Positions 13,246 through 60,929 of a stretch of 64,000 bases of DNA are shown here, one piece after another. Position 1 is the stretch's first letter; every line of letters starts with the position of its first letter. The translations under genes were made by a program, and so were the position numbers. The notes beneath the pieces were generated by a model that was given only the letters and a program-made list of their open reading frames with translations, was not told the origin of the DNA and made no database searches. The stretch is from Antedon mediterranea (taxonomy: Eukaryota; Echinodermata; Crinoidea; Comatulida; Antedonidae): the NCBI RefSeq assembly GCF_964355755.1, contig NC_092671.1:12504501-12568500 (forward strand), given 5' to 3'.

Positions 13246-16200
13246 ATGGCTTCCAACCAATATTCTGCGAGTAACCACAGGAACTTAAAGTCAAAGAGTA
13301 TGTCCAATATACATGCAGATCATCATGGCAATGGCTCACCTCAACTGATGTCGTCATCTGTGAGTGATGTACGAGAAGCTCAAGAGCATGGCCAGAATTA
13401 TCAAAAAGAAAAAGGTGTAGTATGATGATTATTGGTTTTTTACTGTAACAAATAAAAGTATTAGAAATACTGAATTTTAGAATAGAAAGACGTACAATAA
13501 ACAAAGTCATAAACAAAACCATTAATGAGAAAAAAAGGAAAGTTGTAATATGGAAAATGTGGGTGGTAATGTAACACCCAACATAATTGCTTAGCAACTC
13601 AAAGCTTTCATCCAGCTTATTTTTTTTAATTGGGAGCTAGTAGCTAGGTCATGTTAATTAGTAGCTAGGTCGTTTATTTAAATTTTGTGTATTGAAATGT
13701 GCTTCCTCCCTCAATTCCTCTACACAGTTTTTGCATAATATGCAGAGGTCATAGGTCATCACAAATTGAAAAAAAAAACCAACACGAACAAAAACCCTAT
13801 ATTTAATTATCAAAGTTATAAACTCTTGCATTTTTTAGTAGTCTTCATAAAATGTTTGTAGCTACATTGCTGATTAAAATGAAGAATAAAGCCCATTCAT
13901 TTTTGCACTCATGTTGACCCTTTTAGGGTACAATGCATATGTACCAAGTATTGGCTTCATATGAAATTGTATACTGTACCTTCACACACTGTGAATCATA
14001 TTGAAGGTGTGTTCAAGCATACAGATGGAGTATTGTTATTCTTTCTTGTTGTCTTGTTTACATTCTAAAGTTCACACTCTTTATTCAAATACACTTGTGA
14101 TCTCTGGTATGCTGTTTACCCAATGGGAGCTCATAATGAAACTTAATTAGTTAAGACAGGGAAGAGAATTTCATTCTTCTCTGCTTAAGAATTTATTTGT
14201 TTATTAACCCAATCAACAAATCAAATAATAGAAGATAGACAATTTACAAAAAATCTATTCTTATTCAGGGGCGCAGCCAGCAAAGAATTAAAGGGGGGGT
14301 CAACGAATATGTGAGTATTTTACGAGCGAAGCGAGCAACCATGGGCTGGGGGCCAGGGGGCCGCCAAGGGCCCCCGGTTGGGGTCCAGGGGGCGAAGCCC
14401 CCTGGAAGCTTTGGCGGTCTAGGGCAATCTAGATCATTTGAATCGGTTTACGCACACACAAATATGACAATGTTAACACTAATAAACTGAAACAAAGAAA
14501 ACAAAAAACAACTCTCATTTTCATTACAGAACATTTTTATATTCCAGGCTGCCACAGACAAACACTTTTTTTCTTGCTTGTTTGTTGATTTGTGTAGAGA
14601 GGCTGTAAACTCAGGAGGAATTATTTGAATTCCTCCCTTTTCACCAATACAAAAGTTGCATGAAATGAACGTAGAGATGCAAAAGTTTGAAAAAAGAAAT
14701 TAGAATGATAGCATGGAGGGAGTGATATTATTAAATGAGAACCGTAAGGTTAGAGCTCATACACTATGCAAGTCCAAGAAGCTATCTTGGCTCCGTGTGT
14801 ATGTGAGACGCTTATCATACCCAGTACATACAATATTTTGTTTAAAAATATACCTATTTTGTTCGAATGTATAGTATAGGTGATAGCTTATACATAATTG
14901 TAATAACTAACTTCTAAATTATTATCATACATTTTACGTTAGTTACTATAACGGCGCTCTTGACATCGCGTGATGCATCTTTAAACATAAGTTTGGAACA
15001 TTCTTCTTGGCTTGGAGACAGAATTCGCGAATGACATTCTCTGTATTAATGTTCATGTTAAAGTGTATGTTCATGAGGCACAATCCCGAAAGCTGCTCAT
15101 AAGACATGTGATTTCCCAAACAGGTTTTCGTTCTCCATAAAGTCGAAAAACTCCGCTCAGCTTAAGCAGACGTTACGGGCATAGGCCTACGCGATTAGAA
15201 GAAGTGCACACACATTCGGGAACACATCTGGATCCGCTAATTTTACACAGTCGCTTCCATCACTGAAGCTCGGAATGAAGATGTTCGTGTCTTGGCAGAT
15301 CATCGTACCAAATTCAAGTTCCTTGAAGACTTCTTCAACATTACACTTCACGATAGACTCGGGTGCTACGCCAAATATTTTAAAGCATGGCCTGTTATCG
15401 GCAGAAAAACGGGTTTTTAACTCGGTTTGTAATCAAGAAGTTGATTTGGTAATACTGCTCGGTAGTAATCTTCCACAGTATCTCCAGGATGATTGATCTG
15501 TATTGTTTTCTCATGTTTTTATTTATTTTTTCTAAAAAAAAGGGGGGGTCAGGACCCCCGTGACCCCCCCACTGGCTGCGCCCCTGTTATTTTATTTAAG
15601 TGATTGAACTGAATTTGATAGGAAATACAGAGTAAAATCCCTCATTATTTTACCATACTGTAAAACAAACCAGTATTTAGGGAACATCTGCATTAAGGGG
15701 ACACTTTTGGTGGGGTATGGGAGAGGTAGATTTTGGGGAAGTGCTAAAACTGTATTAATTATTTATGAAATAAATATATTTAGAATTACAATTTAACGTT
15801 GTTTTATTGTTTAGTAAACCAACATATCTCTATCTTTTATAGTTGCTTCTCCTTGGGCTTCTCAAATTGTAGATTTACTAAGAAGACGTATTGTGTATAA
15901 ATCTGGTAAGTATCAAATTGAAATAAAAAAATAAATCACAACAGACTAATCAATTGGTGAAACTTATCTGCAACTGCTGTGCAATTGTGTTTACTATTCA
16001 GTTTATTAACTATCTCTATTTAAATTCTAAATCAACAACGTTGGATCCCTACAGTTCAATATGTTTTTTTTTGTGTTTAATAGCCAATCCAAGGAATGTT
16101 TAAAGTAAGGTTGATTTTAATTCATGATTTCAACAGTCGTGACCTCCTCCTTCCATTATTGACAATCTATTATTATTTCAAGAATGTAGAAAAGAAAGCA

Positions 16201-22200: not shown

Positions 22201-24331
22201 CAGAAATGGTATGTGTGTTATTGAGTTTAAATTTAGTCTGCAATACCAAGACTACACAGCTGTTGAGTAGAAAAGTCAAATATTTTTTAGCATGTGCAGA
22301 ATGGTTGTTAAGTGTATTTGCATGGCATTCACGAAAAACTCAATGTCGCTTTTAACCAAATTTACTGAAGAACACTTCATATAATTTGTGTTTATTAAAA
22401 ATGTTTTTTAATTATTTTCCAGCTTGGTCAAGAAATGGATAAGTTCTCTACAGTAGTAAGGGAGAGTTTTAATGACACCAACTTTTCTGAACGGGACTTG
22501 CATTATCATAGAAATAGGCAAAGTTCCATACAAAATAGATATGTTGATACAATTGCTATGGGCAAAGCTTTGTTAGATAGAATAGCCGCTCCCTCGTCAT
22601 CTCCTTACAGGTGAATTTCTTTTTTGTCTCAATACTGTAATGTACATTTTTGAATATAACTAAGAAAGATATTGTATGTTTTACAGTTGTCACTTATAAA
22701 TACAAAAGGCAACTTATTAAATATACAGCACTGCTGTCAAGACCAGTGACCCAATCTCAATTGAGATAAATAATAAATAAGCAGAAAACCAAATCAAAAC
22801 ATACTGTTGTTGGTTTTACAAATTGTATATAATTTGTGATAGAGCTTCATTGTTTCTGTAGAAGTCCCTGACATATGAATAGATAAAAATCAATGAATTG
22901 TCATGTTTTCAGTATTAGTAAAAGTAACTTAAAATGTCATTACAATATATATTGCATTTGAAAGACAATAAAAAAATTGGCAGTATGTTTAGAGTATTCA
23001 TATTCTGAGCTAATGTATTGAATGTTGATCTCTTCTAGATTGGTTTCACCGCCAGAACCAGCAGGTCAGGTTTTTAGTCAAGATGATACCTTAATTAACC
23101 AGAAACTGTTAGAATTGAAAATTAAAAAGTTAGAGATGGATTTATTACTATCAAGACCAGAAGAGGCAGAGAGTATTCTTAGGCATATTAAAGAGTAAGT
23201 ATTGGCAATGCCATCTCAACATTTTTATCTGATGGTTTTCCGTACTCTGACATAATTGTACGGATTTCTCAGTATTAAAACCACTTTTGGAATAAATTTT
23301 TAAGTAATACGTTTGTGCAACTGTCACAAACTCCCTTTACGTATGTTTCCGAGCGGTTGAAAATACTTTAGGAACTCCCTTCTGACATAAAATTATACAC
23401 ACAATTTCTATTAATAGCACTTCTGGAATGTTCCTGATTGTTCTTGTTAATTATACATGGTTTCTTAAATAAAAACATCTTATTCTAGAATATTCATGTA
23501 GACTCTATTATACTGTGTTAGGATGGTAATTTATTACAGGCAACTCAAACCAGATCACTAGCCCGGCATTTATACCTTTAGGTCACCGAGGCTTTGCTCT
23601 TTATTATTCAATTTCCGGTAATCTATTAACAAGTTAGGTCATGTAAATTCATTTTCCGAATGTGGGGACGTTTGTACATGCTTCATCACTCTATGCTTTG
23701 ATCCACTGTTTTGATTTGTATGTCCAGACAACCAATGACATATCAATGACTAGGTCATAGGTCATCGCAAATGGGAAGCTCCCTTTTAAAATCTAAATCC
23801 AAATACTGTAGTTCTATTTTTAATAAAAAATATTATTTAATTTTGTTTATATTTGACAGTTTATCTGCATACCAAATATCAGGACCGAATGCCAAAGACA
23901 CTTCTTCTATTCTTGAATCTGACCTTAACAAAGTTTCACCAGCATCATGGAAAGATGCTAAAGGAATGGTATCGCCATTCACAAACTCTGAACCACAACA
24001 AGTTGTCCCAGCAACATGGAAAGATGCTCAAGGAATGGTTTCTCCATATACGAAACCCAATCATAGTATGACATCCACATTTCAAGATGGTCCGGAAAAG
24101 GCGTCATCACCTATGTCTGATAACTATGCTAGTTATAATGATTCCATGAAGGGAGAACCTCTTGTACAGGAGCCTATATTTGCCAAGACAGAAGTTCAGA
24201 ATACTGCAGCAGCAATGAACAATATTAGATTTGGGGATAGTTCTCCTGAAGAACAGGCTGCAATGAGGATATTAAAAGAGTTTGAAGCTGAAATAGATGA
24301 GGTAAGTTATTTTTATACATCTTTTATATAA
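13246..24331 (+). CDS. SESTD1: SEC14 domain and spectrin repeat protein (SESTD1 orthologue)
   Basis: Seventeen coding exons: 13246-13414, 15843-15905, 17455-17560, 17816-17906, 18526-18624, 18732-18848, 19148-19313 (or 19295), 19719-19906, 20110-20232, 20571-20762, 21110-21224, 21339-21580, 21714-21836, 22017-22208, 22423-22610, 23039-23194 and 23860-24331, about 933 residues (human about 700). A non-coding exon precedes, ending at 12087. Residues about 62-215 form a SEC14/CRAL-TRIO-type domain (PFVIVADFTG; LTEDFGGTLLYNHDEWVELR). Spectrin repeats follow, with SESTD1 landmarks VVDWIIGPGEKLL, AFGKDIT and LRTCEEDSVQ. Human SESTD1 binds phosphoinositides and acts in TRPC and Wnt/planar-polarity signalling. 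There is no RhoGEF domain, so it is not Trio or Kalirin. Oddities are an extra last exon absent from human SESTD1 and a strong donor (GAG|gtaagt at 24301/24302) 10 codons before the stop. Confidence 0.9.
14266..15586 (-). mobile_element. Degenerate hAT-type DNA transposon
   Basis: The ends are the inverted repeats CAGGGGCGCAGCCAG and CTGGCTGCGCCCCTG, flanked by a 5-bp direct repeat TTATT (14261-14265 and 15587-15591). Read on the minus strand, 15162-14946 encodes the hAT dimerisation block (AERSFSTLWRTKT...MSYEQLSGLCLMNIH) and ends in a stop. Further upstream DTVEDYYRAVL precedes a stop and frameshift. The transposase is thus dead. The left end (14330-14420) is a G/C-rich inverted block unlike the rest of the window. 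It lies in SESTD1 intron 1. Related transposases are the ZMYM1-like hAT proteins. A 5-bp duplication is short for classical hAT (8 bp) but is known for some hAT lineages. Confidence 0.85.
20261..20450. mobile_element. MITE with imperfect terminal inverted repeats
   Basis: The left end TAAAGCGTGGTTCACACTAGC pairs with the right end (reverse complement TAAAGCTTCGTTACCACTAGC). The inside is richer in GC and CpG than the intron around it, and holds no protein. It sits in the SESTD1 intron after exon 9. Confidence 0.65.
23860..24301 (+). other. SESTD1 exon 17: added C-terminal extension with internal repeat and fusion-capable donor
   Basis: This exon adds about 150 residues beyond the region that matches the end of human SESTD1. 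It holds a duplicated motif: PASWKDAKGMVSPFT and PATWKDAQGMVSPYT, 22 residues apart. It ends with FEAEIDE and the donor GAG|gtaagt in phase 0. If unspliced, ten more codons lead to TAA at 24329-24331, immediately followed by poly(A) signals. Confidence 0.7.
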
Positions 24332-24347
24332 AATAAAAGAAAATAAA
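24332..24347 (+). promoter_or_regulatory. Tandem poly(A) signals after the SESTD1 stop
   Basis: AATAAA occurs at 24332-24337 and again at 24342-24347, directly after the TAA that follows the unspliced last donor. A U-rich stretch follows. This would end the short SESTD1 transcript. Confidence 0.55.
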
Positions 24348-25267: not shown

Positions 25268-28200
25268 ATGGCTGCACCAGGAGGGGTAACTGCGATCAGT
25301 ACGGTAGCAGTGCAGTCCGGAGAGGCTCGTATCATCCTAGCGGTTTTGAGAGTAAGTGCTTCTATTCCAGTAACCTAGGGCGCAAGTCTGGTTTTAAAAG
25401 ATGTGGGAAAGGGGTTCTTCGGAACCGGGGGAATGATTTATATTCAACTTTGAAGAACTTTATCATATTAATAATTTAAAACAGTTTAGATAATTCAAGT
25501 ATTTTTTGATTGCTTGATTTTGATGATTTTTAAATATTCAACATAACAACATTGGCAGTTTGCAGTATTTTAAATTACAATACAATATTGAAACTTGACT
25601 TTAAAAAAATGCTTTTTTGATCTGAAGATAAGAAGGTAGGAGGATTTTTTCCAGAGTAGTTTAATTGTTTTAAAAACATTAAAGCTTATCTTTACCTAAT
25701 TTTAATTAGTTATTTAAAAATAACAGTAAATTTGTCAGTGATGTCTACATATTTAACACCACTATAGTGTTACACTAGGAACTGGTATTTGAAGTGGTAT
25801 TTAAAGAATGCATGAGATAAAATGTGCTGTGTTAATTTCTATGACCAGAGGGTCAATTCTGTAATTTATCTTATGAGTATTAGTTAATTGTTTAATAACA
25901 CCATGGAGAATTTCTCAATGATAAGACATAATTGATACTGAACATTTAAACTGTTTTAGCCAATTCAATTGTCTGATTCAATTTTATTGAATTTTTAGTT
26001 GAATAGTCATCTGAATTTGACATTTTATGTTTGCATTGTCAGAGCCTGGGGAAATAATTAAAATTTTGTGATTTAATGAGGGAGGCCTGACCCTCACAAT
26101 TGTCTTGTCTTGTTAGGGTAACTTCGTTTTGAGATCAGCATAAATATTTAGATTCTTGAGTGTCCAATAGTAGGTACACATAACTTGATAAGGTATCTTG
26201 CAGATGGAGATACTTTACACTTGTTATGGGTAGGGTGTTCATCTTAAAATTCTTTGAATATTATCATTTTTCCGAGCGCCAATATTAAATTCTATTAAAT
26301 TTTATACCTATTATTTATAATTTAAGCTTTCCACAGTGGTATTCATAAGATGATAAGTTAAAAATAATTGTAACAAACTGTGATTAAACATAATTATCAC
26401 CCCTGTGGAAAAACAAACAGGTATACAAATTATTGTAAACAATGAATGAGTGTATATTACTGATTATCACTTTATTTACCAATTTGCTATCTTTGTTGGG
26501 GAAAAAAGCTACAGTAGGGCAGTTTTATAGATTTTTATTTCATGTTATGATAATTTTGTTATATCTTTTCCAGTAGTGATTTGCGGATTAAATTAATGTT
26601 CTTGCGGTTTTTCAGTTGTGGATTTCTCTAGGATTTAACGTTACTGACAGCCGCACACTTCAGCAATTATACCATGCTGTGAAACTGATATTAGCTATTT
26701 ATAGGCATGGCTTAGTTGGGTGATTCGACCTCTTTGAAAAGAGCAGTTAGGTAGTTAGTAGGTTTGAGTGAAGCTGTATTTACCAATTGTGCCCCCTGAC
26801 GTCATTGCATTCTTTAATATTGGACACATTTCAGAGTATGATCAATCTTCATGGTATGCCAGGGACGTGTTAATGTGTTTTTAATTTTAATATTTTATTA
26901 AATTATGATATGAATTACAGTAAATAATTACTGCACAAATACAAACAATACAAACTTGTTACTTAGATAGAATTAAAATCAATTTTTTGAGGCATTTTGA
27001 TTTTTCAGGCATAATTTATATATATAATTTTTTTAATGTTATAAAATTGTAGACATTTTTGAGAAAAAACAATTATCAATTTAATGCAAAATGCATATTA
27101 ATATACCACAAAGTATGATAAATTAAAAATAGTAAAGGATAAGTAGGTCAGAGACACAGACAAAAATCATGGTCTTAAAGATACAGTGATGCCAAACTGA
27201 AATGTAACATTTTCCAGACGTCCATTAGTAATTAAGAATATTAATTGACAGTTTTGGGTCATGATATTTTTAACATATTAACATACAAGGACATTTTTTA
27301 TTAAATAATAAAATTTTTTTAATTTTAAAAGGATGATTATAATGTGTCACCGCATCTTTAAAGTATCATTAATGTTGTAATGACAAGCCTTCACAGCTGT
27401 AAAAGCCAATTGTAGGTTACAGTAAAAACATCTGTTAAAACTTAAAAGATTTCAATCATTAAATCGTTTAATAGGGATATGAAACTATACATGGTTGTGA
27501 GAAAAAGAAATGTAGACCTACAACAGAAGGTTGAAAATAAATTAATATAGCATATTAATTTTGTAATAACATTAATAAATATCTGTACCCATGCGGCTAT
27601 TGGTTATATTAAAAATATTGGAATTATTACAGATTACAAGTTACAGATTATTAAAATATCCAAAGAATGCATTGGCCACCTGACATTGATTGTTGATCAT
27701 TACGTCCTTGATAATCATACTGAAGACATAGAAATCACAAATAAAAACAAAACTCTTTTATGCTCTATTTAAAATAAATGTATTGCTTATACAGTACTGC
27801 ATTTAATCATAAATACTAGTACTATGCTTGTTTCACATCAACCCAAAAATGTTAAAACAAAACAAAACATGGAATTATCATCATTGACTTAATTTAATAA
27901 CTCTATACCCTAAGTGAATCTAACCAGTTTACTTATTGCCTCAAACATATTTTTTTCAAAACATACTTTACTGCAGTTATCTGTTGTCTTATGGAATGCC
28001 TACCATAAATTAACTTACTTTGTGATTGGGTAGAATAAATTTGATTGGCTAATAGTAATGTTCTCAGGGTTTCTATGTTATGTTTACTATTGTTAAATTG
28101 TATAAATAGATTCAACTACTGTAGGATATTTTTAACCCTTTTATTTATAGTGTATTTGCATATTGTTGTTGTACACATTAATATATTAATGATATCTAGA

Positions 28201-49200: not shown

Positions 49201-52200
49201 CTATTCTGGTCATTTTGGATTTTGTTAAAATGTTGATTGATAATCCAAAGTTGATTGATATGATAATGTATTGTAATAAACAAACTGTTTAGAATGAATG
49301 CTAATTGAAACTAAAACAAGTTTATCTTCAATCAGGAAACTAAAATATAATGTATTGTTTTTGAACTCAAAAGTTGTAATATTCATGAGTTTATTTAAAT
49401 AAGGAAATAAGGCAGCTATAACAACTATGATGGTAAATTCCTGAAAACACTTGGATGATAGTTAATAAAGGAGGAATTTGGCAATGGATTGCTTTAAATA
49501 CACATTTATGTTATATTAACATTCATGAGTACATTAAGCAATTATTATCTTGTTTTGAAGGTACAGTAATAAAGGCACATTATAGTATGTGAAGTAAATA
49601 ATGGTTCCTGAAGGTGCCATCTTTACCGTATTACTATTACCTTCAAACAAGATGTATTTAATAGTAATACTTTATCAGCAGTTTTACATTTGAATTTTAC
49701 ACCATGCAAACGTATATTTATGCTTAATGAACAAGAATAAAAATATATTTTTGTTTCATAGTCAGGAGGAACTTATATTTATAGCAGGGAAGAGTGAAAT
49801 TACACTCTTCCCTGTTTATAGTTATTATATATTTTGAAATGCTGTAATCTATACAAATCATCAGCATCATATTGCAAATTAATGCTATACTAAAAATAAT
49901 ACCTATCTTCTGTTATGGTTTTCATTTGTTGTAAATGTTAGGATTGTCCATTCCAAGATTATCTTTCAAGATAGTCTGATAAACTGTCAATTTTGGATTG
50001 ATATATATCAAGATTGAAACATTTTAATTAGGTGTCCAACTCATGTTGCTTCTTTTAATCTTCACGGCACAAATATGATACCTATGATTAAGTTTCATAC
50101 TCATTTATGGTTCTTTATTTAGGTGTCCTATTAGGTTTTTGGTATGCCAACTTGTCCACTTTTCCATTAATGTAAATGTACAAATATTATTCTAAAAAAT
50201 TGGTACTGCAATTTAGTACTGCTATTTTTTGTATTTGTTATTTCATTTCATTCTATCTTGATTCCTGTTTTTTCTATTTATTGTAAATCTCCTCATTATC
50301 AATCTGTATATTTGGAGTGCCTTGAGAATTTCTTTGATAATGCACTGTAGCATGTTGGTTGTTGACATGTTTCTTCCTGAGTAGGTAGATCAAGATAAGT
50401 ATAACAACTATCAATATGCCTACTATGATAGATACCAATAACAATAATAGTTTAATTGTGACAAGCTTGTCTTTATTTTCAGTTGTTTTATCAGAGATAG
50501 TGAATGTTACCAAATCAAAGACATTCTGAGCATCAGTACGTACTCCACATTTTAGAGTGTACTGACCAGCTGGTAGTTGGTAGAAGCATCTTTCTCTATT
50601 GTGGTGACCATTTCTGTTGGTCAGACCGTTATTTAGTGTCCAGTTAAAGACCTTATCACCAGATCCACCTTCTGCATGGCATTTGAAGCAGCAGTGTTGT
50701 CCACAGTCATTATCAGGCATTTCAAATTTCTTTATATTAACTTGTAATTTAGGATGAATTTTTAATATTGATGTATAGCACCACTTACGAATGCCTTTTC
50801 TCGCAACGCAAAAGAAAAATATTCCATCACCTGAGTAAAAACCTTCAACAGTCTGGTTAAAATATAGTACATGTTGATTAACTTCTACATTGTAAGTCTG
50901 TGAAATACTGTAGTTCCTTTGTACCCATCCACTGGTGACATTACGCTCAGCAGAAGAGTAAAAGTTTCTTTTGCAGTTGAATGTTACTTGCTCTCCCTCA
51001 ATGAGGTTCTTTTTCAAGCCATAACATTTATATTTTGGTAATTGTACACCTTTTGATATATTATCAGTAGATATCAAAGTATGTTCATTGTTTTCATCTG
51101 CACATATGTGTATCCCTTTATCATCTTCTTTATTATAAGATATAAAATGATGACACTTAACTTTGTTTAAACTCTGTGTAGATGCTTTTTCTGCATAAAT
51201 AGTGTACTGGATTTTACTCTTGTCAGCCATTTGCCAATTGCTTATAAGCTGGAACGTTTGATTCAATTTTATGAGCCTTATCGGTTTTGAGTCTCTCTTT
51301 TCTCTATCTTCCTTCCAAAATACAAAATCCTGAGCAAAAACATGCCTGACCATCACAAAAATGATACAGTTTAAAAGAACTATTCTGGTCATTTTGTGAT
51401 TTGTTAACATCTTTAATGATAATACCCAAGTTGCTTTAATAATACTGTATATTAAAATAAATTGTTAGAATGGAGGCTAATTGAAACTGAAACAAAAACT
51501 AAAAATACAATTGTAATGTTTAATTAGTCATGATTTTCTTAAATATCTGGTAACAATATCATGAAATTTGAAACAAAGCAAAAAGTCAAGCAGAAAATCA
51601 AAATAATTTCTACATACCAACTTTATTTGTATTGTATGCCTCTAATAAAAACATATTATTTATTTATATTCTTTATTAATAACCAGTTGTTGCAATTAAT
51701 TTTAATAAAACTGGAGTCTTCTCGCTTTAATTCTCCCCCGCAAAATAATAACAATCATATGTTATCTCATCGATCCACATTGTAGTTTTGGTGATCGTCG
51801 ATCGCACAAATAAACAGCATGCTTTGTGAGTGCAGGTTTCCCATACTCACGAGGTCTATTTGTTTTGCAGTTAAAAGCTGCTCCGCAATAATCGGTTAAA
51901 ACATGCAATAATCAGTTAAAGAGGAATGAGAGTGTTTTTAATTGGCTATTTTTTAATTGGTTATGTCATTTTGCAAATAATCAATTAAAAAAATAATCGG
52001 TTAATAACCGATTATTCCTGCTGAGCATAAACAGGCCCTAAAAGGCATAAACATTTGTTGAGAGAAGTTGTTTTGTTTCCTTGTATCAATTGACACTGAA
52101 GAAGATCATATTTCATTACCATTAATAGATGTGCTAAGGAAGCCAGAATTTATTGACCCTCCATTAAAGCAGGTTGCAGATGAAGGAGCTGCTGCCTCTA

Positions 52201-55200
52201 TTGTGGTTACTGTTGTAGGCTCTCCAACTCCAGCTGTTGTTTGGTATGGTCATTGTTTCATATTTTATTTCATTTCATTTTGTAGTTTTATGATTTTTAG
52301 TAAGTTATGGTTTGATCCAACTAAATTGATATTACACAGGCTATAAATAAGAAATACCAATCTCAGAATCTTACAGCCTTAACTCCTGTAAAGTCAGTCA
52401 TTTTGGTCACATCATCGGTCACAGATCCAATTCCTGGCAGGCCTAAATATATAGAATTAAATATCAACATTTTAAAATGCAGGCACAAGGATGGGTGTAG
52501 GATTGATGAATTAGAAGAGGATCCCTATGAACATGTCATAGATGGTGATACACACACCTTGAGAATCTTGGAAGTGTTTGCTGAAGACCATGGTACATAT
52601 ACATGTCAGGCAACCAACAAAGCTGGAATGTCAGCCATAGATATTCAACTTGAGGTTGAAGGTCAGTTATTGATTTGTTGTATTACCACTCTGATTTATT
52701 TTAGTTAAAGACAAAAATACAAAACATTCCGCACACAATAAGTAACAGATAACAGATGTCATTAAAATTAAATCAATTTGTATTTTCTTTCATAGAAAGC
52801 TTACATGTTCCAGTATTTATTGAAAAACTAAAGAATGCAGTTATACAGGAATCTAATAGTCATACTTTTGAATGCTTTGTCAGTGGTAAACCAACACCTG
52901 TGATTAACTGGTACAAAGATAGTATTATTTTAGTAGACAGTGATAAGTTCAAAATGAATTTCACAAAAGATGTTGCAATCCTGACAATAAATGATGCAAA
53001 TCTCCAAGATTCTTGTACATTTACTGCAGAAGCTAAAAATTCAGAGGGAGTTGTGAAAACATCAGCAAGATTAGAAGTTAAAGGTAGGTCACCATTGGTT
53101 TAGTATGTGTACATAATCAACCGTAAGCTTTTGTTTCAGGAGATAACGGCTTAACATATAATGTGGAACATATGGAAGAATTCTTCCACTCAGTATGTCT
53201 CCTTTGTCTACCATCTTGCAACGAAACAGTGCTACTAAGATAAATTTTTTCAGGTGTTCCATTTTATAGTGGATCTCCATGGACTCTTAATCCACTATGA
53301 TATTGATACTGTATTTTATATAACATTTACAATTGTTTCTACTTTTTTTTTTGCTTTGCAGAAATATTAAGAGCTCCTGTTTTTATACAAAAACTACAAG
53401 ATGATTCTGTAGAAGAAGAATCAAATCACACATTTGAATGTTCTGTAACTGGTAAACCAACCCCAAGTGTTAAATGGTTTAAAGATAGTAATGTCCTCAA
53501 AAACAGTAATAAATACCAGTTGGATTATACGGATGGGGTTGCAAAGTTGACTGTATGCAATGTAGCTATGTCGGACGCAACAACATTTACTGTAGAAACA
53601 AGCAATTCTCAGGGATTGGTTACCTCTATGGCTCATCTAAATGTTAAAGGTACAATTTAAATTTAGACGAATAAGAACTTCTGTTTTTATTGGTCTTGTG
53701 ACACCATTCCTATGTGTGATAGATATAGAAATTATATTAATATTGGTCATTATATTAATTTTGGTCATTATATTGCAACATTATCCATTTGATAATAAAA
53801 ATGTAGGCTCCTAATTCAGATAAACTATAGTCAGTTCTGGTTTAGACAAGGCTCAATGGAAAAAAAAAACACTACTTTAACCAGGTTACCTGTAACAGGA
53901 CAAATACACTACAATGTAAATAAGTGTTACAATATGATGACAACGCAATTTTTTTTTTGTGTTTTAGAAATTTTCAGTGCTCCTGTGTTTGTGAAGAAAC
54001 TAAAACCAGCAGTAGTAGAAGAATCTAAAAGTCATTGTTTTGAATGTTCTTTCACTGGCAAACCATCACCAACAGTCAGATGGTTCAAAGAAAGTAACCA
54101 ACTAGAAGAGAGTGGCAACTACAAGATGTCAGTGTCTAAAGGCAAAGCTAGCCTGACTGTTGTGGAAGCAAAGTTAGAGGACACTGCCATGTTTACTGCT
54201 GAGGCTAGTAATACCGAAGGCAGTGAGACTACTTCAGCCAGCTTAGAAGTTAGAGGTAACTTTACAATTATTGGTATTAAGGCCACATGTAGATTATGTA
54301 TACACGTCTGATGAATAAGAAATATATAAAAATAATGTCCAAGGTAGTAAAAGTTCTTCCTTACAAGTTTTCAAATAAGTCCATTTTGTTTATATGCTCT
54401 AACAATAAGGTGCAATAGAGAACTTGGTCTATGGAGGTCTCCACAATAGTCATTTTATTAAACTTTTTTTCTTTCAAACAATCTAGAAATATTCCGTGCA
54501 CCAGTTTTCTTTGAGAAACCTAAAGATGCATTTGTAGATGAGTTCTCTAGCCATCAGTTCAAATGCTTTGTAACTGGCAAGCCAACACCAATGATAAAGT
54601 GGTTCAGAAATGGTGTTCTACTGAGTGAAAGTAGTAAATACAAAATGGAGTATAAAGATGACATTGCTAGTCTCACAATAGTTGAAACAACGATGGAGGA
54701 CTCAACTACATTTACAACTGAAGCAAGTAACTCACAGGGCATTGTGAAAGCATTTGCTGAGCTAGAGGTCAAAGGTAACTTTGTACTTTCATATTTTACA
54801 TTCCTTTCATTATAAAATAATAAATAAATTGCCTATGTACTAAATTAATTTATCAACTATATTTTAATATTTATTTATTTTGTGTTTGTTTTTATTTAGA
54901 AATTTTAAGTGCACCTGTTTTTATCGAAAAGCTGAGAGATGTTGTCATAGATGTATCCTCAGATCTGAGATTGGAATGCCTTGTTACTGGCAAACCCATT
55001 CCCAGCATCAGGTGGGCTAAAGATGGTACCCAGCTGCAAGATAGTTCCAAACATCAACAAGGTTATAGTGATGGTGTCGCTAGTCTTACAATCCAGGATG
55101 TGTCAACATCTGATGCTGGTAAATACAATGTCGAAGCAAGAAATTCTAAAGGCTTTGTTTCTACGTCATCACATGTGGAGGTTAAAGGTTAGTAATTATT

Positions 55201-58200
55201 TATAATTATATATTATTTATTATAATATATTATCTTTTATGAAGTTAAGTTTGGAATAAGAATAACATTCAGTATTGAAAGCCTTTTCCACAATTTAGAA
55301 ACACAAATGTCAAACTAAGCTACATAGCTTTTGTGTATAATTTTCATCCACAGAGGTAAAGAAACCTGTTGCAGCACCTCGTTTCAGTGTCCCATTAAAC
55401 AACATTGATGTAGATGAGGGAATGTCTTGCAAATTATCATGCTTTGTGATAACTGAGAGTGAACCAAGTATAACTTGGTACAAAGATGGTAAAATCATTG
55501 AAAATAGTGCTGACTTTGACATCAGTTACGATCAAGGAAAGTGCTGTTTATATATTCAGGAGACATTTGTTGAAGATACTGGATGTTACAAATGTAAAGT
55601 AGTGAACGAGGGCGGTCATGCTAGTACTACAGGAAACCTTAACGTTGAAGGTAATGTGGCATGAAGTAACATTGTGTCAAACTTTTGTTGAAAATGTTGG
55701 ACAAATTCGACAGAATGAGATTTGTATTTATTTGTTTTTTAGCTCCACCACCAGTTGATGAAAGCAGTCCACCTCATTTTGTGACCCTACTTGGTGATGT
55801 CAGTGTTTCTGCAGGGGATGGCCTGGAGTTGACCTGTACGGTGACCGGCAATCCAGAACCAATGGTCACCTGGTTTCATAACAACAGCCAGGTGGAAGAA
55901 TCGGACAATATTACGGTGAGATTTTGTTTATGTGCTATAAGCTAAATGTAGTGTCACTATTTAACATGTTGCCTTCAAGTTAAAGGATAAGTGTTTCTAT
56001 TCTAATCACATGCCTTTTATTTATCAGATAAGTGAGAATGGTGAACAGCACACAATGGTGATACGCCAGGTGTTGTCTGAACATAGTGGAACTTACATCG
56101 CACGTGCCAGCAACCATGTTGGTGAAGATAGTACAGTGTCTAATATCAATGTTGAACAACTCATGACAAGGTAATATTAGATAGATAGCATCTTTATATT
56201 GCACAATTTGTCTTTATGTTGGGTTTAATTCCCCTAAGCAAACACTTTCCTTGGTTTTGAACCTCTATGAATGAAAATGGCACATTTTTATTTTCTTCCA
56301 CAATCTATAGAATAACACATTCATTATTATACTCTTACAAAACTGTAATATACAAATGTTTCATGTATATTCTTATAATAATTGTTATACATTATATATA
56401 TAAAACATTAAATAATGTATTAATTTTTAACCTCTGTATTTTGCATACAGAACATTATATTTATTCCAAAAAGTAAATGTATCGATTATACAGTTGTAAT
56501 GTTTTAATCTTTCTCTAAAATAGTATGAGTGACATAACACTAGCCAACCAGCCCAAGCCAGGAGCCCCAACCATTCTGGAGGAGCCACCAGAGGATGTAC
56601 ATGTAGCTGAAGGAGAGGAAGTCACTATAAATGCCCATATCACAGGCTATCCAACACCTAAGGTAGACTTTAATCATGTTCTTAGTATTGCTTCTTGAAT
56701 ATTATAATATATAAGCTTTTGATAATTCAGTGCTAGTTATATCATAATTAATGATGTTTTTTGTAGTAATTTGTACTTTATACTAAATACATTGAGAACG
56801 CGAAGAAATAGGGCAAACATCTGACCAATTACTGAACTCCCTGATGCAATGCTACTCCACAGTAGCTAAATAAAATTATCATCCTGTTGGTGCAGTATGC
56901 ACTGCTTTCTTGGACTTGAATCAAACCCCTAGACATCAGCTTGGTGGACTAGAGGTATGAATGCCAGGCTAGTGATCTGGAGGTCATGGGTTCGAGTTTC
57001 AATGGAGAAGTGTTCCCAATGTAACATCTGACCAATGTTTTTTTTTGACAGGTTTCCTGGTACAAAGATGAAATAATTGTAAAAGAAACAGAAGAGATAA
57101 CGATAGTGGAAGAGAAGCATAGATGTAGCCTGATGTTCAATCCAGCTAGGTCATACCATTCAGGTGTGTACATATACAAAGCAGCTAACATACATGGCTC
57201 TTTAAGTGGCTCATGTAGGGTTCAAATCGAAGACCAAACAACCAGTAAGTATTCATTAGTTTTAACAGTATGTACTTAAGTGTATAAGGTACCCTGTACA
57301 TATGTATGTATGATGCTTAACTTAGTTTCCAGTCCCAGATATCACAAAATATTGTAGGCATACATATACAGATAGAACATATTTAAATGATATCATTATA
57401 CTAAATCGGAAGATCTTAAAAGATTGTGTAATATATTTTTAGAAAAGATGGTAGTTAGAAACTTTTAGTTTTCAAGTTGCATCTTTCAAGCCATAAAAAT
57501 AAGCACTTATTATTTATTTATGTATTATAGCCACTGTAACATACCCTGAAGCCCCAACATTTACGCAACCTTTAATGGAGTCTGTTTCACCGAAAGAGGG
57601 CGACACAATAAGAGTTCAATGCCGAATACAATCTTTAACTCAACCAAAGGTATGTTCTACAAAATCTTTCTTTAAAATTACTTGTTGTGATTAGAAGTTG
57701 TAATAAATCAAAATATTCCAACATTTAGTATTCAGTACAGTCGGTAAAGATAACTTTTTATGTTTTCAACATATTCAGATTCGTTGGACAAAAGATTCTC
57801 GTACTGTACATGAAACTTCCCGTATTCGTGTGACCCAAGAAGATGATGTTTATTGTTTGATCATAATCCATGTAAAACCAGCAGATGCAGGACATTACAA
57901 AATTACAGCAATTACCCCAACAGGAAAAATTGAATCTTCCTCCATCATACATGTTGAAGGTCAGTGTGTTTATTAATTACTAATAATATGTCTATGGGCT
58001 GGTAAAATCTACAGCTACCAATTGTGGTGCTGAGCGACTAAATTCTGCACTCGCTCCATATCCATTTGAAGATAATGGTCGGCTCAACTGAATGATATTC
58101 TAATGTTTGATTTAGCCATTACATTTTGTTTAAAGAAAATTAATATTATGAAATTTGTTTTACTTTTTTATTCAATATCTTGCACAGAGAAGCCTCACAA

Positions 58201-60929
58201 GGTGAAACCATCTTAGTTTCAAGGTGCCCCAATGAACTTATCAGGCCTTGTCTTTTAAGGCGAGCGAGTGCGATCACTCACCCTACAAACCCCTAAACTG
58301 TCCTTGAGGTGTGCAATTTAGAACACGCTTAAATTTGGTAAACTTCTACACACCAAAATAGAAACAGCACACCTACAGAACCCCTGAATGTATTGAGGAG
58401 TGCAATTTGTAGCACACCTATAATTTTCAAAAGACAAGGCCTGAGTTAATCAGTATAATCTGATGACATAAAGATGGAACCAAACGTATATTAGTATTAG
58501 TTTAGTGCAGATCTTGCTATAATAATAATTATTTTTCTATTTTTTAGAGCCTCAATCTGTTCCTCCAAAGTTCACTATCCAGTTGAGGGATCAACATGTG
58601 GTGGATGGTGATGAAGTCAAATTTCTGTGCCAGGTCACAGGTCGACCAACTCCAGAGGTCACTTGGTACAGAAGGGATGAGAGAATTGAAGATGATGGAG
58701 ATTTTAAGGTAATCATAAACTATATTTAATCAAGTGCAAATCATATTTACAGTATTGAAGAATTTAAAAATTAACATAAATCTAAATAATTATTATAATT
58801 TTAATTTGTAATAATTAATTTTGTTTAAATAAAGACATTTTTGGTTTTGCGTTTCAGTTATTTTATGATGAAGAACGTCTAACATTGGTAATTAAAGAAG
58901 TATTTCCAGAAGATAGTGGGATTTACAGAATAGAAGCCACTAACAGTGCCGGTCAGGCAAATTCAGAAGCAGAGCTTGTTGTTGAGTGTAAGTAACAAAT
59001 ACCATATCAGAAATAAATTTGTCTGTGTTATGTCAGATTTTGTTATTATGCCTCCATAATCCAAGGCCTTGATTCTAAAAAGCATTTGGCATAAATCCTA
59101 TAGGTCTCAAACGAACCTCACATTTTCCTAAGTGCCTTCCTTTTGCCTTCCTTTTAAACATTGAGGCTGGTGTTCCCCAGTCTACCAGCCCCAACTACTT
59201 GCTTATACCTTTCCCCTTATTAACGATCACAATCTTAGCTAGGGCTTTGGTGATATATTGAGGTTTAAGTAGGATTATCCATATAGTTATTTTATTAATT
59301 CACTATATTTTGTGTATGAATATTGTATTAATTAATATTTCCTTTTTATGGCCTCCAGATGCTCCACATGTGATGAGGAACCTGACAGACACTGAGGTTT
59401 GGGAAGGCAAATCAACCCAATTTGAGTGTGTCATCGCAGCTAACCCCTCACCTAAGATAATCTGGCTGCTCAATGAGAACGTTGTACCACGTGACCATAT
59501 CACAGAATCCGATGGTGAGAGGCACCGCCTTGTCATACCAGAGGCATTTGTTGGTTGTAGCGGCGTGTACACATGTCTTGCTGAGAATGATTTAGGACAC
59601 GCCAGCACTGAAGCTTCTCTCAAGATTAGGCAAGGTGAGGAAAATGTTTTTTTGATAGGGAATTTTTCATTAGATATTAATCTTGAGTTTTTGCGCTTTT
59701 CAGTGTTGCATTTAAAGCCTGTTTTGCAGTCGACGTTGAGTTGCGTTGAATTGAACAGAATCATCGATTTTTAGAGGAAAAGGGGTAAAAATTAACACTA
59801 AAATTCATTAAAATCTGCAATCGTTGAACCACTTGATCATCATTATCGTTATTTATTTTCAACTTGAGTGATTTGAAAATGCAACACAACAGAAACGTAA
59901 CTCAATGTCGACTGGAAAACAGGCTTAACAGAATTGTATGCTTACTGATTACATTGCTACTTTTCTAAACCTTTGAAATTTATATTACTGTTGACAATTA
60001 ATATTAAAACATTTCTTTTAATTCTATGAGGTATGTTTTTTTTTGTTAAGAAAATTAATTAATAGTTAATTACATTTTACTTATGATTTACAAATTATTA
60101 ATGAATTGTTGTTTTGTTTATCCAAAAAATCTAAATTATCAACACACAGTAAAGTCAGTAAAGCTAATAAACTGAAGTTATCTGTTTCTAGAGGACGGTA
60201 TATAATACATTGCCCTTTATTAGTGCAGTTGGTTTAACCTATCATTATGGTAATGAGGTTAGACATTATTACATGTATATTACTATACAGCCTGCTGTGC
60301 GTGTACTATTTCATCTTTTGACGATTGATAAACCGGTTCAGTTCGCTTACGTCCATAGTTAACATTCTCCACATGCTTTCCTTTCTGACTTTGAAATGTC
60401 TGCATGTTCAGTTTGTATGTGATAATTATCAGTTGTAGGTCTCACTATCTCACAGTCAATGAATACATTTGAGTCTGAAAGATGTATCCATCCCTCAAAA
60501 CAATATTAATATAAAAAATTCATCTGATAGCTTTATAATCAAATAGTATAATTACTTTCAACAAAAACAGTAAAAAAAAAGATTATAATGTAAATTAATA
60601 ACTTATCTATAGTTACAAATTCCATTTCATTGAGTCATGTTTGTTTTGGTGTCAAATTGTAATAATTTAAAACAACATAAAATTAATAAACTATCAAGTT
60701 AATAGTCTAACATTACATTGGTATTTTGATATTAAATACACTTTTTTTGTGTTTTCATTCTTTATAATTATTTTTCAATGACTTTAAAAAGTCATTTAAA
60801 TGTAGAGTCATTTTTATCTGTAGTATAACAATGACTTCGAATATTAATTGGATGGCAAAAATTTGATTTTAAATTTATTTTATCCACAGAAGAGACAAGA
60901 AAGGAGATTGAATATGAGACCATAGAAAG
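25268..60929 (+). CDS. CCDC141: CCDC141-like spectrin/Ig protein running into a titin-like Ig array (3' end beyond window)
   Basis: The open model has 40 exons and about 2545 codons, all junctions in phase. Exon 1 (25268-25351, ATG start, 28 codons) and exon 2 read TVAVQSGEARIILAVLR then STEWVRVKV; this matches the CCDC141 N-terminus (VAVQAGDSKIVIAVIK, then WVQLQL). VYEAMAQSLGEAWQDL matches its VYDAMAETLGEAW. Exon 19 (VKWYNDGNKLL...LLTKQLYG) matches the last spectrin-type region before the linker. The first Ig (exons 21-22) corresponds to the single C-terminal Ig of human CCDC141, but the reading frame continues into 12 more Ig domains. No stop and no poly(A) site was found after the first Ig. 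CCDC141 (CAMDI) binds DISC1 and myosin II and acts in neuronal migration; titin-like Ig arrays serve as muscle scaffolds. The function of the joined protein is unknown. Exon lists are in the next entries. Confidence 0.82.
25352..28308 (+). other. CCDC141 intron 1
   Basis: Three kilobases of very AT-rich sequence. Apart from the MITE listed separately, nothing was recognised. Confidence 0.6.
27174..27363. mobile_element. MITE in CCDC141 intron 1
   Basis: Imperfect terminal inverted repeats: CTTAAAGATACAGTGATGCC at the left and, reading inward from the right, CTTTAAAGATGCGGTGACAC. The inside is AT-rich and non-coding. Confidence 0.55.
29771..30160 (+). repeat. Dispersed repeat, copy 2
   Basis: Second copy of the element at 7297-7803, same orientation, shorter by internal deletions. 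Its right end (catttaaccagataatata) lies 24 bp before the acceptor of CCDC141 exon 3, so it supplies part of the sequence upstream of that splice site. Confidence 0.75.
31084..31933 (+). mobile_element. 5'-truncated LINE, C-terminal part of reverse transcriptase ORF
   Basis: An intact reading frame from about 31084 to the stop at 31855-31857 encodes the end of a LINE polymerase: WCDVNKLTINSKKTNYIIF, the thumb block TYIGVDIDNRLTWKVH, then LPHISFALEAWGNTY and SAAKLWNEIPDDLR. It ends with a run of 17 A at 31917-31933. The polymerase active site and endonuclease are missing, as in typical 5' truncation. The frame is not disrupted, so insertion is fairly recent. It sits in the CCDC141 intron between exons 4 and 5, in the same orientation. 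Confidence 0.85.
33205..33436 (+). mobile_element. Probable LINE 3' end with (GAAA)n tail
   Basis: A short inverted repeat (agagggggagcgagcg / gctcaccctctag) is followed by an AT-rich non-coding stretch ending ggtaaataaagaaagaaagaaagaaag, a microsatellite tail of the kind left by non-LTR retrotransposition. No ORF remains. Confidence 0.4.
37707..37855. mobile_element. Palindromic MITE family, copy 1
   Basis: Begins CTCTGTCTACACTATCAAACT and ends with the inverted AGTTTGATAGTGTA. The core includes tgcccatatata and atgatgtcatatcattaccatattt. It is shared with 39821-40195 and 61946-62082. Confidence 0.75.
39821..40195. mobile_element. Palindromic MITE family, copy 2, interrupted by a nested insertion
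   Basis: The left arm AAGCTCTATCTACACTATCAA (39821-39841) and the rest of the element (from about 40060, atgtgacaaaaaaatgtgatg, to 40195) are separated by about 200 bp of unrelated sequence, so another element inserted into this copy. The inner segment contains gatgatgagaatagcttctcg, a small hairpin. Confidence 0.65.
41600..41850 (+). mobile_element. Possible LINE 3' end
   Basis: Starts after an (ATA)n run and ends with gacgaaataaatgaaatgac, the ATGAAA-rich tail typical of some non-LTR elements. A similar tail (tgaaataaaatgaaataaaa) ends another candidate at 43515-43610. No coding part is left. Confidence 0.3.
43515..43610 (+). mobile_element. LINE 3' end with stem-loop
   Basis: GAGGAGCC at 43517 and GGCTCCTC at 43553 form a perfect 8-bp stem. 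The element then ends in the simple repeat tgaaataaaatgaaataaaa. A 3' hairpin followed by a short tandem tail is the signature recognised by the reverse transcriptase of several LINE clades. Confidence 0.45.
45857..47182 (-). CDS. Ig-like type I transmembrane receptor with C-terminal ITIM (receptor 1)
   Basis: Intronless, 441 residues. Start chosen at MTRIVLLNC, the start shared with both paralogues; a 24-residue upstream extension is not conserved. Signal peptide 1-20 (ends FAQ), ectodomain with two likely Ig-like folds (C140...W156...GDGIFFFCV; CCFKC...W250...GHYTLKCEV), extra cysteines and many N-glycosylation sites, one transmembrane helix about 311-335 followed by KRKHG. The cytoplasmic tail is about 105 residues, much longer than in the paralogues. 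It holds YENV (Tyr374, a YxNx Grb2-type site) and at the very end I433-H-Y435-H-V-L438, an exact ITIM (I/V/L/SxYxxI/V/L). No orthologue was recognised; an immune-type inhibitory receptor is inferred. It lies in the CCDC141/Ig intron 22, antisense. Confidence 0.78.
   Translation of the reverse strand: MTRIVLLNCIIFMMVSYVFAQDFVLWTEDAEKRDSQPIRLIQLNQTFQLISNWQMADKSKSQYTIYAEKASTQSLNEVKCHHFISYNKEDDKGIHICADENNEHTLVSTDDISKTVRLPKYKCYGLRENLIEGEQVTFNCIRNFTASAERNVTSGWVQRNYSISQTYNVDQNQSVLYFNQTVEGFYSGDGIFFFCVTSQTFGKWCYTSILKIHPKLQVDIKTFGTRNDCGQHCCFKCLAEGGSDDKAHNWTLNGGLTNRNGHHNRERCFYQLPAGHYTLKCEVSTDAQNVFDLVTFTVADKDDNKKNSKPTLTTIVLSVTTSILAVVVIVLLYFLKRKHGNNQQSEINFPRNTDTIARGTSNIPQNNTEAQDQYENVNLNTGNGNHYKVTNIISEMERHTERRSRDVVTDEQCNANQIIEIEEPQSSTDGKNIHYHVLEKD
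47183..49830. repeat. Segmental duplication around receptors 1 and 2
   Basis: The regions 47183-47465 and 49214-49500 (just upstream of receptors 1 and 2) match almost base for base, and so do 47480-47740 and 49570-49830 apart from small indels and an insertion at about 49510-49580. The duplicated unit of roughly 2.1 kb therefore includes gene plus flank. Confidence 0.85.
48116..49213 (-). CDS. Ig-like type I transmembrane receptor, short tail (receptor 2)
   Basis: Intronless, 365 residues, closely related to receptor 1 over the entire ectodomain (same cysteines, GFYSGDGI, KWCYTSILK, RERCFYQLPAGHY). It lacks the three-residue WQM stretch near residue 53 of receptor 1. The transmembrane helix is a different sequence (IKLVLLLVSIIVGILIVVIL) and the tail is only about 37 residues, with VHYQ and EEIYNK but no ITIM. 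Thus the 3' part of the gene differs between receptor 1 and receptors 2 and 3, as if exchanged. About 280 bp of its 5' flank is near-identical to that of receptor 1. Confidence 0.78.
   Translation of the reverse strand: MTRIVLLNCIIFVMVSHVFAQDFVFWKEGKEKRDSQPIRLIQLNQTFQLISNLADKNKSQYTIYAEKASTQSLNEVKCHHFISYNKEDDKGIHICADENNEHTLISTGTISKGVHLPKHRCYGLKMPLIEGEQVTFNCIRNFTTSAHRNVTSGWVQRNYSISQTYNVDQNQSVLYFNQTVEGFYSGDGIIFHCVTSQTFGKWCYTSILKVHPKLQVDIKTFGTRNDCGQHCCFKCLAEGGSGVKVHNWTLNGSLTNTNGHHNRERCFYQLPAGHYSLKCEVSTDAQKVLSLLTFTISDKTTANKDKLATIKLVLLLVSIIVGILIVVILILIYLLRKKHVNSQQATVHYQCTPTVRIDNEEIYNK
50274..51392 (-). CDS. Ig-like type I transmembrane receptor, short tail (receptor 3)
   Basis: Intronless, 372 residues from MTRIVLLNC (six residues upstream in frame are not conserved). 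Same plan as receptor 2: signal peptide, two Ig-like folds, helix LLLLLVSIIVGILIVVIL, short tail ending DNEEIYNK with VHYQ. The ectodomain differs most in the second half of the first Ig-like fold (ARKGIRKWCYTS in place of TSQTFGKWCYTS; EMPDNDCGQ for GTRNDCGQ). It is the most diverged copy in its flanks, so probably the oldest branch. Confidence 0.78.
   Translation of the reverse strand: MTRIVLLNCIIFVMVRHVFAQDFVFWKEDREKRDSKPIRLIKLNQTFQLISNWQMADKSKIQYTIYAEKASTQSLNKVKCHHFISYNKEDDKGIHICADENNEHTLISTDNISKGVQLPKYKCYGLKKNLIEGEQVTFNCKRNFYSSAERNVTSGWVQRNYSISQTYNVEVNQHVLYFNQTVEGFYSGDGIFFFCVARKGIRKWCYTSILKIHPKLQVNIKKFEMPDNDCGQHCCFKCHAEGGSGDKVFNWTLNNGLTNRNGHHNRERCFYQLPAGQYTLKCGVRTDAQNVFDLVTFTISDKTTENKDKLVTIKLLLLLVSIIVGILIVVILILIYLLRKKHVNNQHATVHYQRNSQGTPNIQIDNEEIYNK
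51890..52036. repeat. Foldback-rich element before exon 23
   Basis: Contains several inverted copies of AATAATCGGTTAA / TTAACCGATTATT and ends ctgctgagcataaacaggccc. A possibly related segment at about 16555-16800 also has ggttaaa motifs and ends gcagcagaaacaggccc. Confidence 0.35.
52796..55187 (+). other. Five one-exon Ig domains, each exactly 288 bp (exons 25-29, Ig 3-7)
   Basis: Exons 52796-53083, 53362-53649, 53968-54255, 54487-54774 and 54900-55187 are each 288 bp and flanked by phase-1 introns. Each encodes one intermediate-type Ig domain starting E-x-x-x-APVF-x-x-KL (SLHVPVF in the first) and continuing with C-x-x-x-GKPxP-x-x-x-W. The equal lengths and same phase show serial exon duplication. 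In exons 25-28 the usual F-strand YxC is replaced by FTAEA, FTVET or FTTEA, so these domains lack the second core cysteine; exon 29 reads YNVEA. This feature is common in titin-family I-type domains but is uniform here. Confidence 0.85.
56817..57036 (+). mobile_element. tRNA-related SINE just upstream of exon 34
   Basis: A tRNA-like block lies at 56941-57000 (box A-like TTGGTGGACTAGAGG, box B GGGTTCGAGTTTC). The 13-bp direct repeat ACATCTGACCAAT at 56817-56829 and 57024-57036 flanks the segment and looks like its target-site duplication. The tRNA part is nearer the right end, so the element may be rearranged. Exon 34 starts only 16 bp after the repeat. Confidence 0.6.
58241..58444. mobile_element. 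MITE with perfect 16-bp terminal inverted repeats
   Basis: TCAGGCCTTGTCTTTT at the left and AAAAGACAAGGCCTGA at the right are exact inverses. Non-coding 204-bp element in the intron before exon 37. Confidence 0.85.
59712..59927. mobile_element. MITE with TTAA-flanked inverted repeats
   Basis: The left arm AAAGCCTGTTTTGCAGTCGA continues cgttgagttgcgttg; the right arm is its imperfect inverse (caacacaac...gtcgactggaaaacaggctt). TTAA is present at both outer ends, as in piggyBac-type insertions. It lies in the intron after exon 39. Confidence 0.65.

Follow-up and report, generated by a model that had tools for sequence, protein, structure and literature searches.

A same-strand row of titin/TRIO-family genes in Antedon mediterranea that probably includes the N-terminal portion of a titin (connectitin) locus

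Genes and exons of the window

The window is a stretch of 64,000 nucleotides of the Antedon mediterranea genome (C2:12504501-12568500, where C2 is contig NC_092671.1). Positions with the prefix w or with none are window positions (w being the C2 position minus 12504500), and eight-digit positions are those of C2. Exons of a SESTD1-like gene, a CCDC141-like gene and an array of Ig domains were found to lie consecutively in this window, all on the + strand (Table 1). Both the gene-finder chains and the Pfam matches agree with the initial annotation, which had placed the three blocks head to tail on one strand. The gene finder combined codon log-odds with a generic GT-AG matrix and was trained on this same A. 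mediterranea locus, whereas the proteins assembled from the exon chains were scanned against Pfam. The domain-family scan covered this one genome, whose 18 contigs total 354,431,138 bases, and all of its matches were found on C1 to C11.

Table 1. Features annotated in the window and in the surrounding row on C2
Feature	Position	Strand	Evidence or remark
TRIO-like gene, 3' part	C2:12477353-12493464	+	RhoGEF, PH, SH3_KALRN, I-set, fn3 and kinase in order
Candidate first coding SESTD1-like exon, weak	13281..13414	+	On the gene-finder path, entering exon 15843 in phase 1; without homology support
SESTD1-like gene, SEC14 (CRAL_TRIO_2) then spectrin repeats	15843..24301	+	16 exons, Pfam
Last SESTD1-like exon, two readings	23860..24331	+	Donor at 24301 or stop at 24331
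CCDC141-like predicted start exon (MAAPGGVTAISTVAVQSGEARIILAVLR)	25268..25351	+	Start-exon score 10.5
CCDC141-like spectrin-repeat exons	28309..44282	+	Gene finder; Pfam Spectrin 3.4e-28
Ig1, last Ig of the CCDC141-like part	44595-44838 and 45181-45402	+	I-set 2.2e-22
Three antisense ORFs, alike in sequence, between Ig1 and Ig2	45857-47281, 48116-49288, 50274-51464	-	474, 390 and 396 aa
Ig2 to Ig13, 12 I-set domains	52129..59634	+	I-set E 6.6e-244
Small linker exon	60890..60929	+	Joins Ig13 in phase to the Ig exon at C2:12572273
Two MYLK-like kinases with Ig neighbours	C2:12746810-12787663	+	Kinases from 12746810 and 12784948
Obscurin-like set	C2 ~12802629-12871859	+	Ig, SH3, RhoGEF-PH, Ig, FN3-kinase, Ig, kinase; Pfam

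The assembled SESTD1-like protein (848 aa) has a SEC14 domain (CRAL_TRIO_2, E 6.5e-8) followed by SESTD1-type spectrin repeats (Spectrin_SESTD1, PF24915, E 2.5e-14), which is the domain order by which we assign it. Exons 17816-17906, 18526-18624 and 20571-20678 (or 20571-20762) were placed by eye; these changes concern two exons that the gene finder had missed or frame-shifted, plus one exon boundary. The genome scan for SEC14 gave no match inside the window, a likely result of the division of this domain among several exons. The initial annotation had started the locus at 13246; exons backed by homology begin at 15843 and the weak candidate in Table 1 is the sole exon found ahead of them. The donor that ends the last SESTD1-like exon is very strong (GAG/GTAAGT) and in phase with the CCDC141-like part, whereas in the alternative reading the exon runs through to its stop and an AATAAA follows right behind.

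The CCDC141-like protein (1,272 aa, start exon excluded) consists of spectrin repeats with a terminal Ig domain at residues 1181-1271, as in CCDC141. Its predicted start exon has the best score in the gap 24302-28308, where the next candidate with a different ATG reaches 1.2 and the best scores of three control stretches are 3.7, 1.8 and 5.1; neither gene-finder run chose it. Joined to the exon at 28309, it aligns with a provisional version of the human CCDC141 N-terminus at 31% over 142 aa without gaps (E 5e-25), which we treat as a lead. In the first gene-finder run, the CCDC141-like gene was split at 39792 and the second exon of Ig1 was left out, and looser settings recovered both.

Twelve I-set stretches follow Ig1, in accord with the 12 further Ig domains originally counted, and ten of the twelve have phase 1 at both start and end. 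Fifty-eight exons between 15843 and w74148, spanning the SEC14 part to Ig15, form a chain of 10,618 nt that reads as 3,539 aa with no stop; GT and AG are present at all 58 exons, and the two alternative frames contain 250 and 395 stops. This frame test probes the joins more than the exons because the exons were picked as open.

The row on both sides of the window

The I-set, fn3 and kinase matches extend about 140 kb past the window on the same strand, and the array does not end at 60.9 kb. The succession observed there is that of titin, with a long Ig array, an FN3/Ig array, a kinase and then trailing Ig domains, and this bears out the initial description of the array as titin-like. The Ig exon that is joined by the linker exon lies 3.8 kb past the window end (C2:12572273, w67773). 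For some 80 kb of the titin-type gene, between C2:12608501 and 12690000, the evidence consists of Pfam matches. Downstream there is an uninterrupted reading frame of 2,907 aa, which the gene finder took for a single exon about 8.7 kb long. The fn3 cluster at C2:12652306-12693811 holds 84 of the 150 scored Pfam fn3 matches in the genome (counted by hand), and it is followed by a kinase from 12694297 and by further Ig and FN3 exons to 12708432. The best PDB match of this kinase is twitchin (2.8e-87); MYLK4 and DAPK chains come next, and titin is lower at 4e-66.

The pair Ig14-15 (w67773-74148) has the titin chain 6fwx as its first PDB match and the titin chains 1ya5 and 2a38 as the eighth and ninth, all three of which we take to be titin Z1-Z2. 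Among 28 pairs of adjacent Ig domains it also scores highest against the Z1-Z2 sequence (130.5 bits in one stretch), and Ig11-12, inside the window, is second among the one-stretch matches with 111.8 bits. The single-domain ranks disagree, as Ig16 and Ig4 exceed Ig14 for Z1 and Ig12 exceeds Ig15 for Z2. A Met stands five positions ahead of PPQF in the Ig14 exon.

Domain and exon evidence shows a row on the + strand of C2 in the order TRIO-like, SESTD1-like, CCDC141-like, titin-type, two MYLK-like and obscurin-like. Its length is about 440-490 kb: a weaker RhoGEF match and the last obscurin-like exon are about 444 kb apart, and the distance is about 491 kb if measured from the first spectrin match. 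The TRIO-like gene has RhoGEF-PH, SH3, Ig, FN3 and a DAPK-like kinase in the order of the TRIO/KALRN C-terminal part; the best PDB match of its DH-PH is TRIO (1.4e-65), and its kinase matches DAPK2 best. On the N-terminal side, where TRIO/KALRN has SEC14, nine spectrin repeats and a first RhoGEF unit, the part 5' of 12474501 is known from weak profile matches: the RhoGEF match at 12428060 (E 3.5e-4, with internal stops) and, at 12380328 and 12421436, two spectrin matches that stay below the cut-off. The genome profile scan gave no CRAL_TRIO_2 match in this 5' region.

MYLK4 is the best match for both MYLK-like kinases (5.4e-88 and 3.4e-98). Two tail exons with an Ig domain were found (12766079-12766685 and 12786884-12787663), and both have an RRWQ tail, presumably the calmodulin-binding tail of the MYLK type. 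The first tail exon lies 15 kb downstream of the first kinase with other predicted exons in between, and we infer that the two belong together.

The domains of the obscurin-like set follow the obscurin order of Ig, SH3, RhoGEF and PH and then two kinases, and the closest match of its RhoGEF is TRIO (4.4e-53). Both kinases have MYLK4 as best PDB match rather than obscurin, a weak criterion given the one obscurin sequence listed; among the matches listed, obscurin is 42nd of the best 60 for one kinase and absent from the best 52 for the other. We therefore use the label obscurin-like rather than obscurin. The stretch may comprise two genes, because the kinases match MYLK4 best and one of them has a MYLK-like tail. 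A tree of six of the row's own kinases and four PDB sequences groups the TRIO-like kinase with DAPK3 and the two twitchins with each other (support 100 each), and leaves the TTN, MYLK and obscurin-like kinases in unsettled order (support 45-58), so that no duplication order is given.

Other genes and ORFs were also observed on C2. The row is interrupted by an otopetrin-like gene (w3066-4832, 2.1e-16), by a minus-strand gene at C2:12717999-12732066 and by an ORF at C2:12796501-12799495 that has no Pfam match above cut-off. Unrelated-looking exons occur inside the span of the first MYLK-like gene and ahead of the obscurin-like set. Homeobox matches are found on C2 at 7.83-8.21 Mb, 11 on the + strand with one opposite-strand match among them.

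Joins between the units and divisions between the genes

Our preferred reading, to which we give a probability of roughly 0.6, is that the window holds the N-terminal portion of a titin ('connectitin') locus, made up of overlapping units within a head-to-tail row of the titin/TRIO family that probably arose by tandem duplication. The reading is drawn from the sequence of the locus. Overlapping transcription units with internal starts would share one open frame. SESTD1 and CCDC141 would have separate starts, yet the last SESTD1 exon could also be spliced into CCDC141. Most of the 12-Ig array would probably be the 5' part of titin, because the splice signals are stronger toward the titin side than toward CCDC141, and read-through of CCDC141 into the array would be a minor or tissue-specific form.

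The joins were ranked by splice signal with the generic splice matrix on a separate list of 58 joins between 59 exons reaching to w75465, in which exon 20571 is omitted and 33556 replaces 33512, with the phase broken at that point. Counting from the weakest, the SESTD1-CCDC141 join (24301-28309) has rank 52 and the Ig1-Ig2 join (45402-52129) has rank 4, whereas the joins from Ig13 to 60890 and from 60929 to w67773 have ranks 55 and 54. With the last two ranks, the array would therefore read on into titin. Three joins are weaker than Ig1-Ig2, namely Ig14-Ig15, which has rank 1, and the spectrin-part joins 34949-35594 and 39251-39553. A weak rank is no proof of a gene boundary, because the lowest-ranked join is within the best Z1-Z2-like pair.

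The spectrin match across the last SESTD1-like exon spliced to 28309 reaches 39.3 bits (profile positions 3-105). Nine controls gave 32.1-37.9 bits (six shuffled linkers, 32.1-34.9; three other exon ends, 33.8-37.9), the start exon joined to 28309 gave 33.7 bits and the exon alone 34.5 bits, and the gain from the SESTD1-CCDC141 join is thus modest. Both gene-finder runs had joined SESTD1 and CCDC141; the idea that the two are simply one gene was dropped on finding the start exon at 25268, and the idea of a read-through was retained because the join completes a spectrin repeat.

The initial annotation had seen neither a stop nor a poly(A) site between the CCDC141-like part and the array and had taken the two as one gene. 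The spliced chain is indeed free of stops, but reading through the Ig1 exon leads to an in-frame stop at 45461. The poly(A) part of the claim fails, as ten copies of AATAAA lie within 45.4-52.1 kb, the + strand of the window having 135 copies or one per 474 bases. The single gene is favoured by the continuous frame and by the compatible phase of the Ig1-Ig2 join (1 to 1); against it stand the low rank of this join and the fact that neither gene-finder run picked it. Under the looser settings Ig2 began at 52173, and a doubtful exon (48833-48864) was inserted after Ig1. A fusion of CCDC141 and the Ig array into one gene is possible on the sequence, and it hinges on this weak join.

Three fully separate genes, as in vertebrates, with CCDC141 stopping after Ig1 and all later Ig domains belonging to titin, is a tentative and somewhat doubtful alternative. 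It would account for the predicted CCDC141 start exon, the weak Ig1-Ig2 join, the stop on read-through of Ig1, the three antisense ORFs that occupy the gap (one of which was scanned against Pfam and had no match above the curated cut-off) and the AATAAA directly behind the alternative SESTD1 stop. It fits poorly with the very strong in-phase donor at 24301, whose join to CCDC141 completes a spectrin repeat with that modest gain, and no titin start exon was found 5' of Ig2.

We consider it unlikely that CCDC141 and Ig2-13 form one gene resembling Drosophila zormin, with titin as a separate gene that starts at the Z1-like exon at C2:12572273. In Drosophila, zormin adjoins sls and combines four spectrin repeats with several Ig domains (Hanashima et al. 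2025, PMC12198301, main text), and Ig14-15 is the best Z1-Z2-like pair with a Met just ahead. No credible start exon was found in 45403-52128, where the best score of 2.9 compares with control bests of 1.8, 3.7 and 5.1, the phases fit, and three other joins of the chain are weaker than Ig1-Ig2. The rank of 4 out of 58 for the Ig1-Ig2 join speaks against such a gene, as do the ranks of the two joins that lead from Ig13 to the Z1-like exon. The positions 24.3, 45.4 and 60.9 kb are the places to ask whether a fused protein is still made.

Origin of the row and comparison with known systems

In the main text of Hanashima et al. (2025, PMC12198301), connectitin denotes SESTD1-CCDC141-CON(TTN), a paralogue of TRIO/KALRN, and SESTD1 and CCDC141 are located upstream of human titin, on its 5' side, in line with the human neighbourhood that the initial annotation had named. 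No other paper on the SESTD1-CCDC141-TTN linkage was found among the matches listed, as judged by titles and the starts of abstracts. The proposal that the single Ig of vertebrate CCDC141 is a remnant of a break fits the connectitin hypothesis of that 2025 paper, but the human terminal Ig, in the provisional human sequence, is closer to Ig15, Ig16 and Ig12 than to Ig1 (20th of 29), and similarity does not support Ig1 as its counterpart.

The linkage of SESTD1, CCDC141 and titin is thus already in print for other animals, in the text of the 2025 paper, and the larger finding here is the same-strand row from the TRIO-like to the obscurin-like gene. The words 'contiguous', 'tandem' and 'same direction' are absent from the main text of PMC12198301, and we found no published description of a contiguous row from TRIO to obscurin, although the amphioxus figure of that paper may show one. 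Its text calls the order of appearance of the titin, obscurin, MYLK and TRIO kinds challenging to pinpoint.

The row probably goes back to a TRIO-type ancestor that was duplicated in tandem and split, and a one-strand row of titin-family-related genes would fit growth from a single ancestral gene. An extended version of this idea, which we regard as speculative and unlikely, is that the ancestral row is nearly unbroken: SESTD1-CCDC141-titin would be readable as one gene, the obscurin-like part would be the C-terminal half of the ancestral connectitin, the titin A/M-band part and the two MYLK-like Ig-FN3-kinase-Ig units would be tandem copies between the halves, and TRIO would be the parent copy upstream. 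Removal of the inserted units would leave SEC14-spectrin-Ig-SH3-RhoGEF-PH-Ig-FN3-kinase-Ig-kinase, close to the domain list given for the cnidarian gene in the text of PMC12198301. Having the titin, obscurin, MYLK and TRIO kinds in one row, ordered like that cnidarian list, would make the history of duplication and splitting testable.

That the row was assembled secondarily in this lineage, and is uninformative on a common origin, appears very unlikely. The comparison covers one genome only and the kinase tree gives no duplication order, which would allow such an assembly; on the other hand, the members of the row are related by domain content and share a strand. According to the text of PMC12198301, moreover, the families lie on one amphioxus chromosome (chromosome 18, with CON, OBSCN, MYLK, MYLK2 and TRIO) and on the HOX chromosomes of vertebrates, and C2 likewise carries the homeobox array. 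Chance or an assembly artefact has a negligible probability, since nothing was found in its favour apart from the 80 kb seen through Pfam matches, no N letters are present in any of the stretches read around the locus, and the many exons are coherent and on a single strand.

In arthropods, the kinase is carried by projectin. The A-band part is ascribed to projectin in these animals, and connectitin is equated with Drosophila CG15822-zormin-sls (PMC12198301, main text). As in the fly, spectrin repeats followed by several Ig domains lie upstream of titin in Antedon, whereas the titin-type locus of Antedon adds a large FN3 array and a kinase. Compared with connectitin as described in that text, the locus shares the succession of a SEC14-spectrin gene, a spectrin-Ig gene and titin. 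It differs in that 12 Ig domains separate the CCDC141 Ig from the best Z1-Z2-like pair, and in the TRIO-like, two MYLK-like and obscurin-like genes that adjoin on the same strand, for which the text states a common chromosome only.

Cnidarian connectitin is described as a single gene with SEC14, spectrin, Ig, RhoGEF, PH, SH3 and kinases (PMC12198301, main text). Compared by this description, its domain list parallels the 5' to 3' gene order in Antedon, whereas the Antedon domains are split over several genes with extra Ig-FN3-kinase genes in between. Like TRIO/KALRN, the upstream neighbour in Antedon has RhoGEF, PH, a KALRN-type SH3, Ig, FN3 and a DAPK-like kinase, but it is separate from the SESTD1-like gene and lies about 27 kb 5' of the first SESTD1-like exon of known homology.

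Predicted genes and repeats within the row

An otopetrin-like exon was placed between the SESTD1-like and TRIO-like genes, and a minus-strand predicted gene, of which one exon was run against Pfam with no match above the cut-off, separates the titin-type gene from MYLKa, the first of the two MYLK-like genes (Table). The gap between Ig1, the last Ig domain of the CCDC141-like part, and Ig2, the first of the array, is occupied by three antisense ORFs that, judged by eye, look like secreted or membrane receptors; the one of these three that was run against Pfam gave nothing above the cut-off. The repeat-motif ORF likewise had no Pfam match above the cut-off.

Window positions 14946-15161 (-) and 31039-31857 (+) are likely transposon remnants. 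The former has a weak hAT dimerisation match in Pfam (E 0.014, under the cut-off), and the latter is an ORF resembling by eye a piece of LINE reverse transcriptase, with nothing above the Pfam cut-off.

Features annotated in the window and on contigs C1, C2 and C8 of the genome
Feature	Location	Strand	Basis
Otopetrin-like exon	window 3066-4832	+	Pfam Otopetrin, 2.1e-16
ORF of repeated motif, Asn/Glu/Ser-rich	window 8591-9514	-	ORF listing
Three mutually similar antisense ORFs (474, 390, 396 aa)	window 45857-51464	-	ORF listing
Very long exon (~8.7 kb), titin-type gene	C2:12598518-12607209	+	exon prediction
Run of fn3 matches	C2:12652306-12683920	+	profile matches
Multi-exon gene	C2:12717999-12732066	-	exon prediction
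Very long exon (~4.2 kb), obscurin-like gene	C2:12810533-12814750	+	exon prediction
3,586-aa open frame packed with spectrin repeats	C1:39196373-39206290		spectrin profile matches
3,044-aa open frame, four homeodomain matches	C8:12532856-12535357		homeobox profile matches

Homeobox matches on the titin contig

Eleven plus-strand homeobox profile matches, with one opposite-strand match interspersed, extend across ~380 kb (C2:7827797-8206132) and perhaps represent a Hox cluster on the same contig as titin.

The fn3 run of the titin-type gene

No I-set match was scored between C2:12652138 and C2:12684083, but 150 of the scan's 1314 candidates were scored, so Ig matches may have been overlooked. 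Vertebrate titin contains FN3-Ig super-repeats, and the fn3 run, with no scored I-set match, differs from this arrangement.
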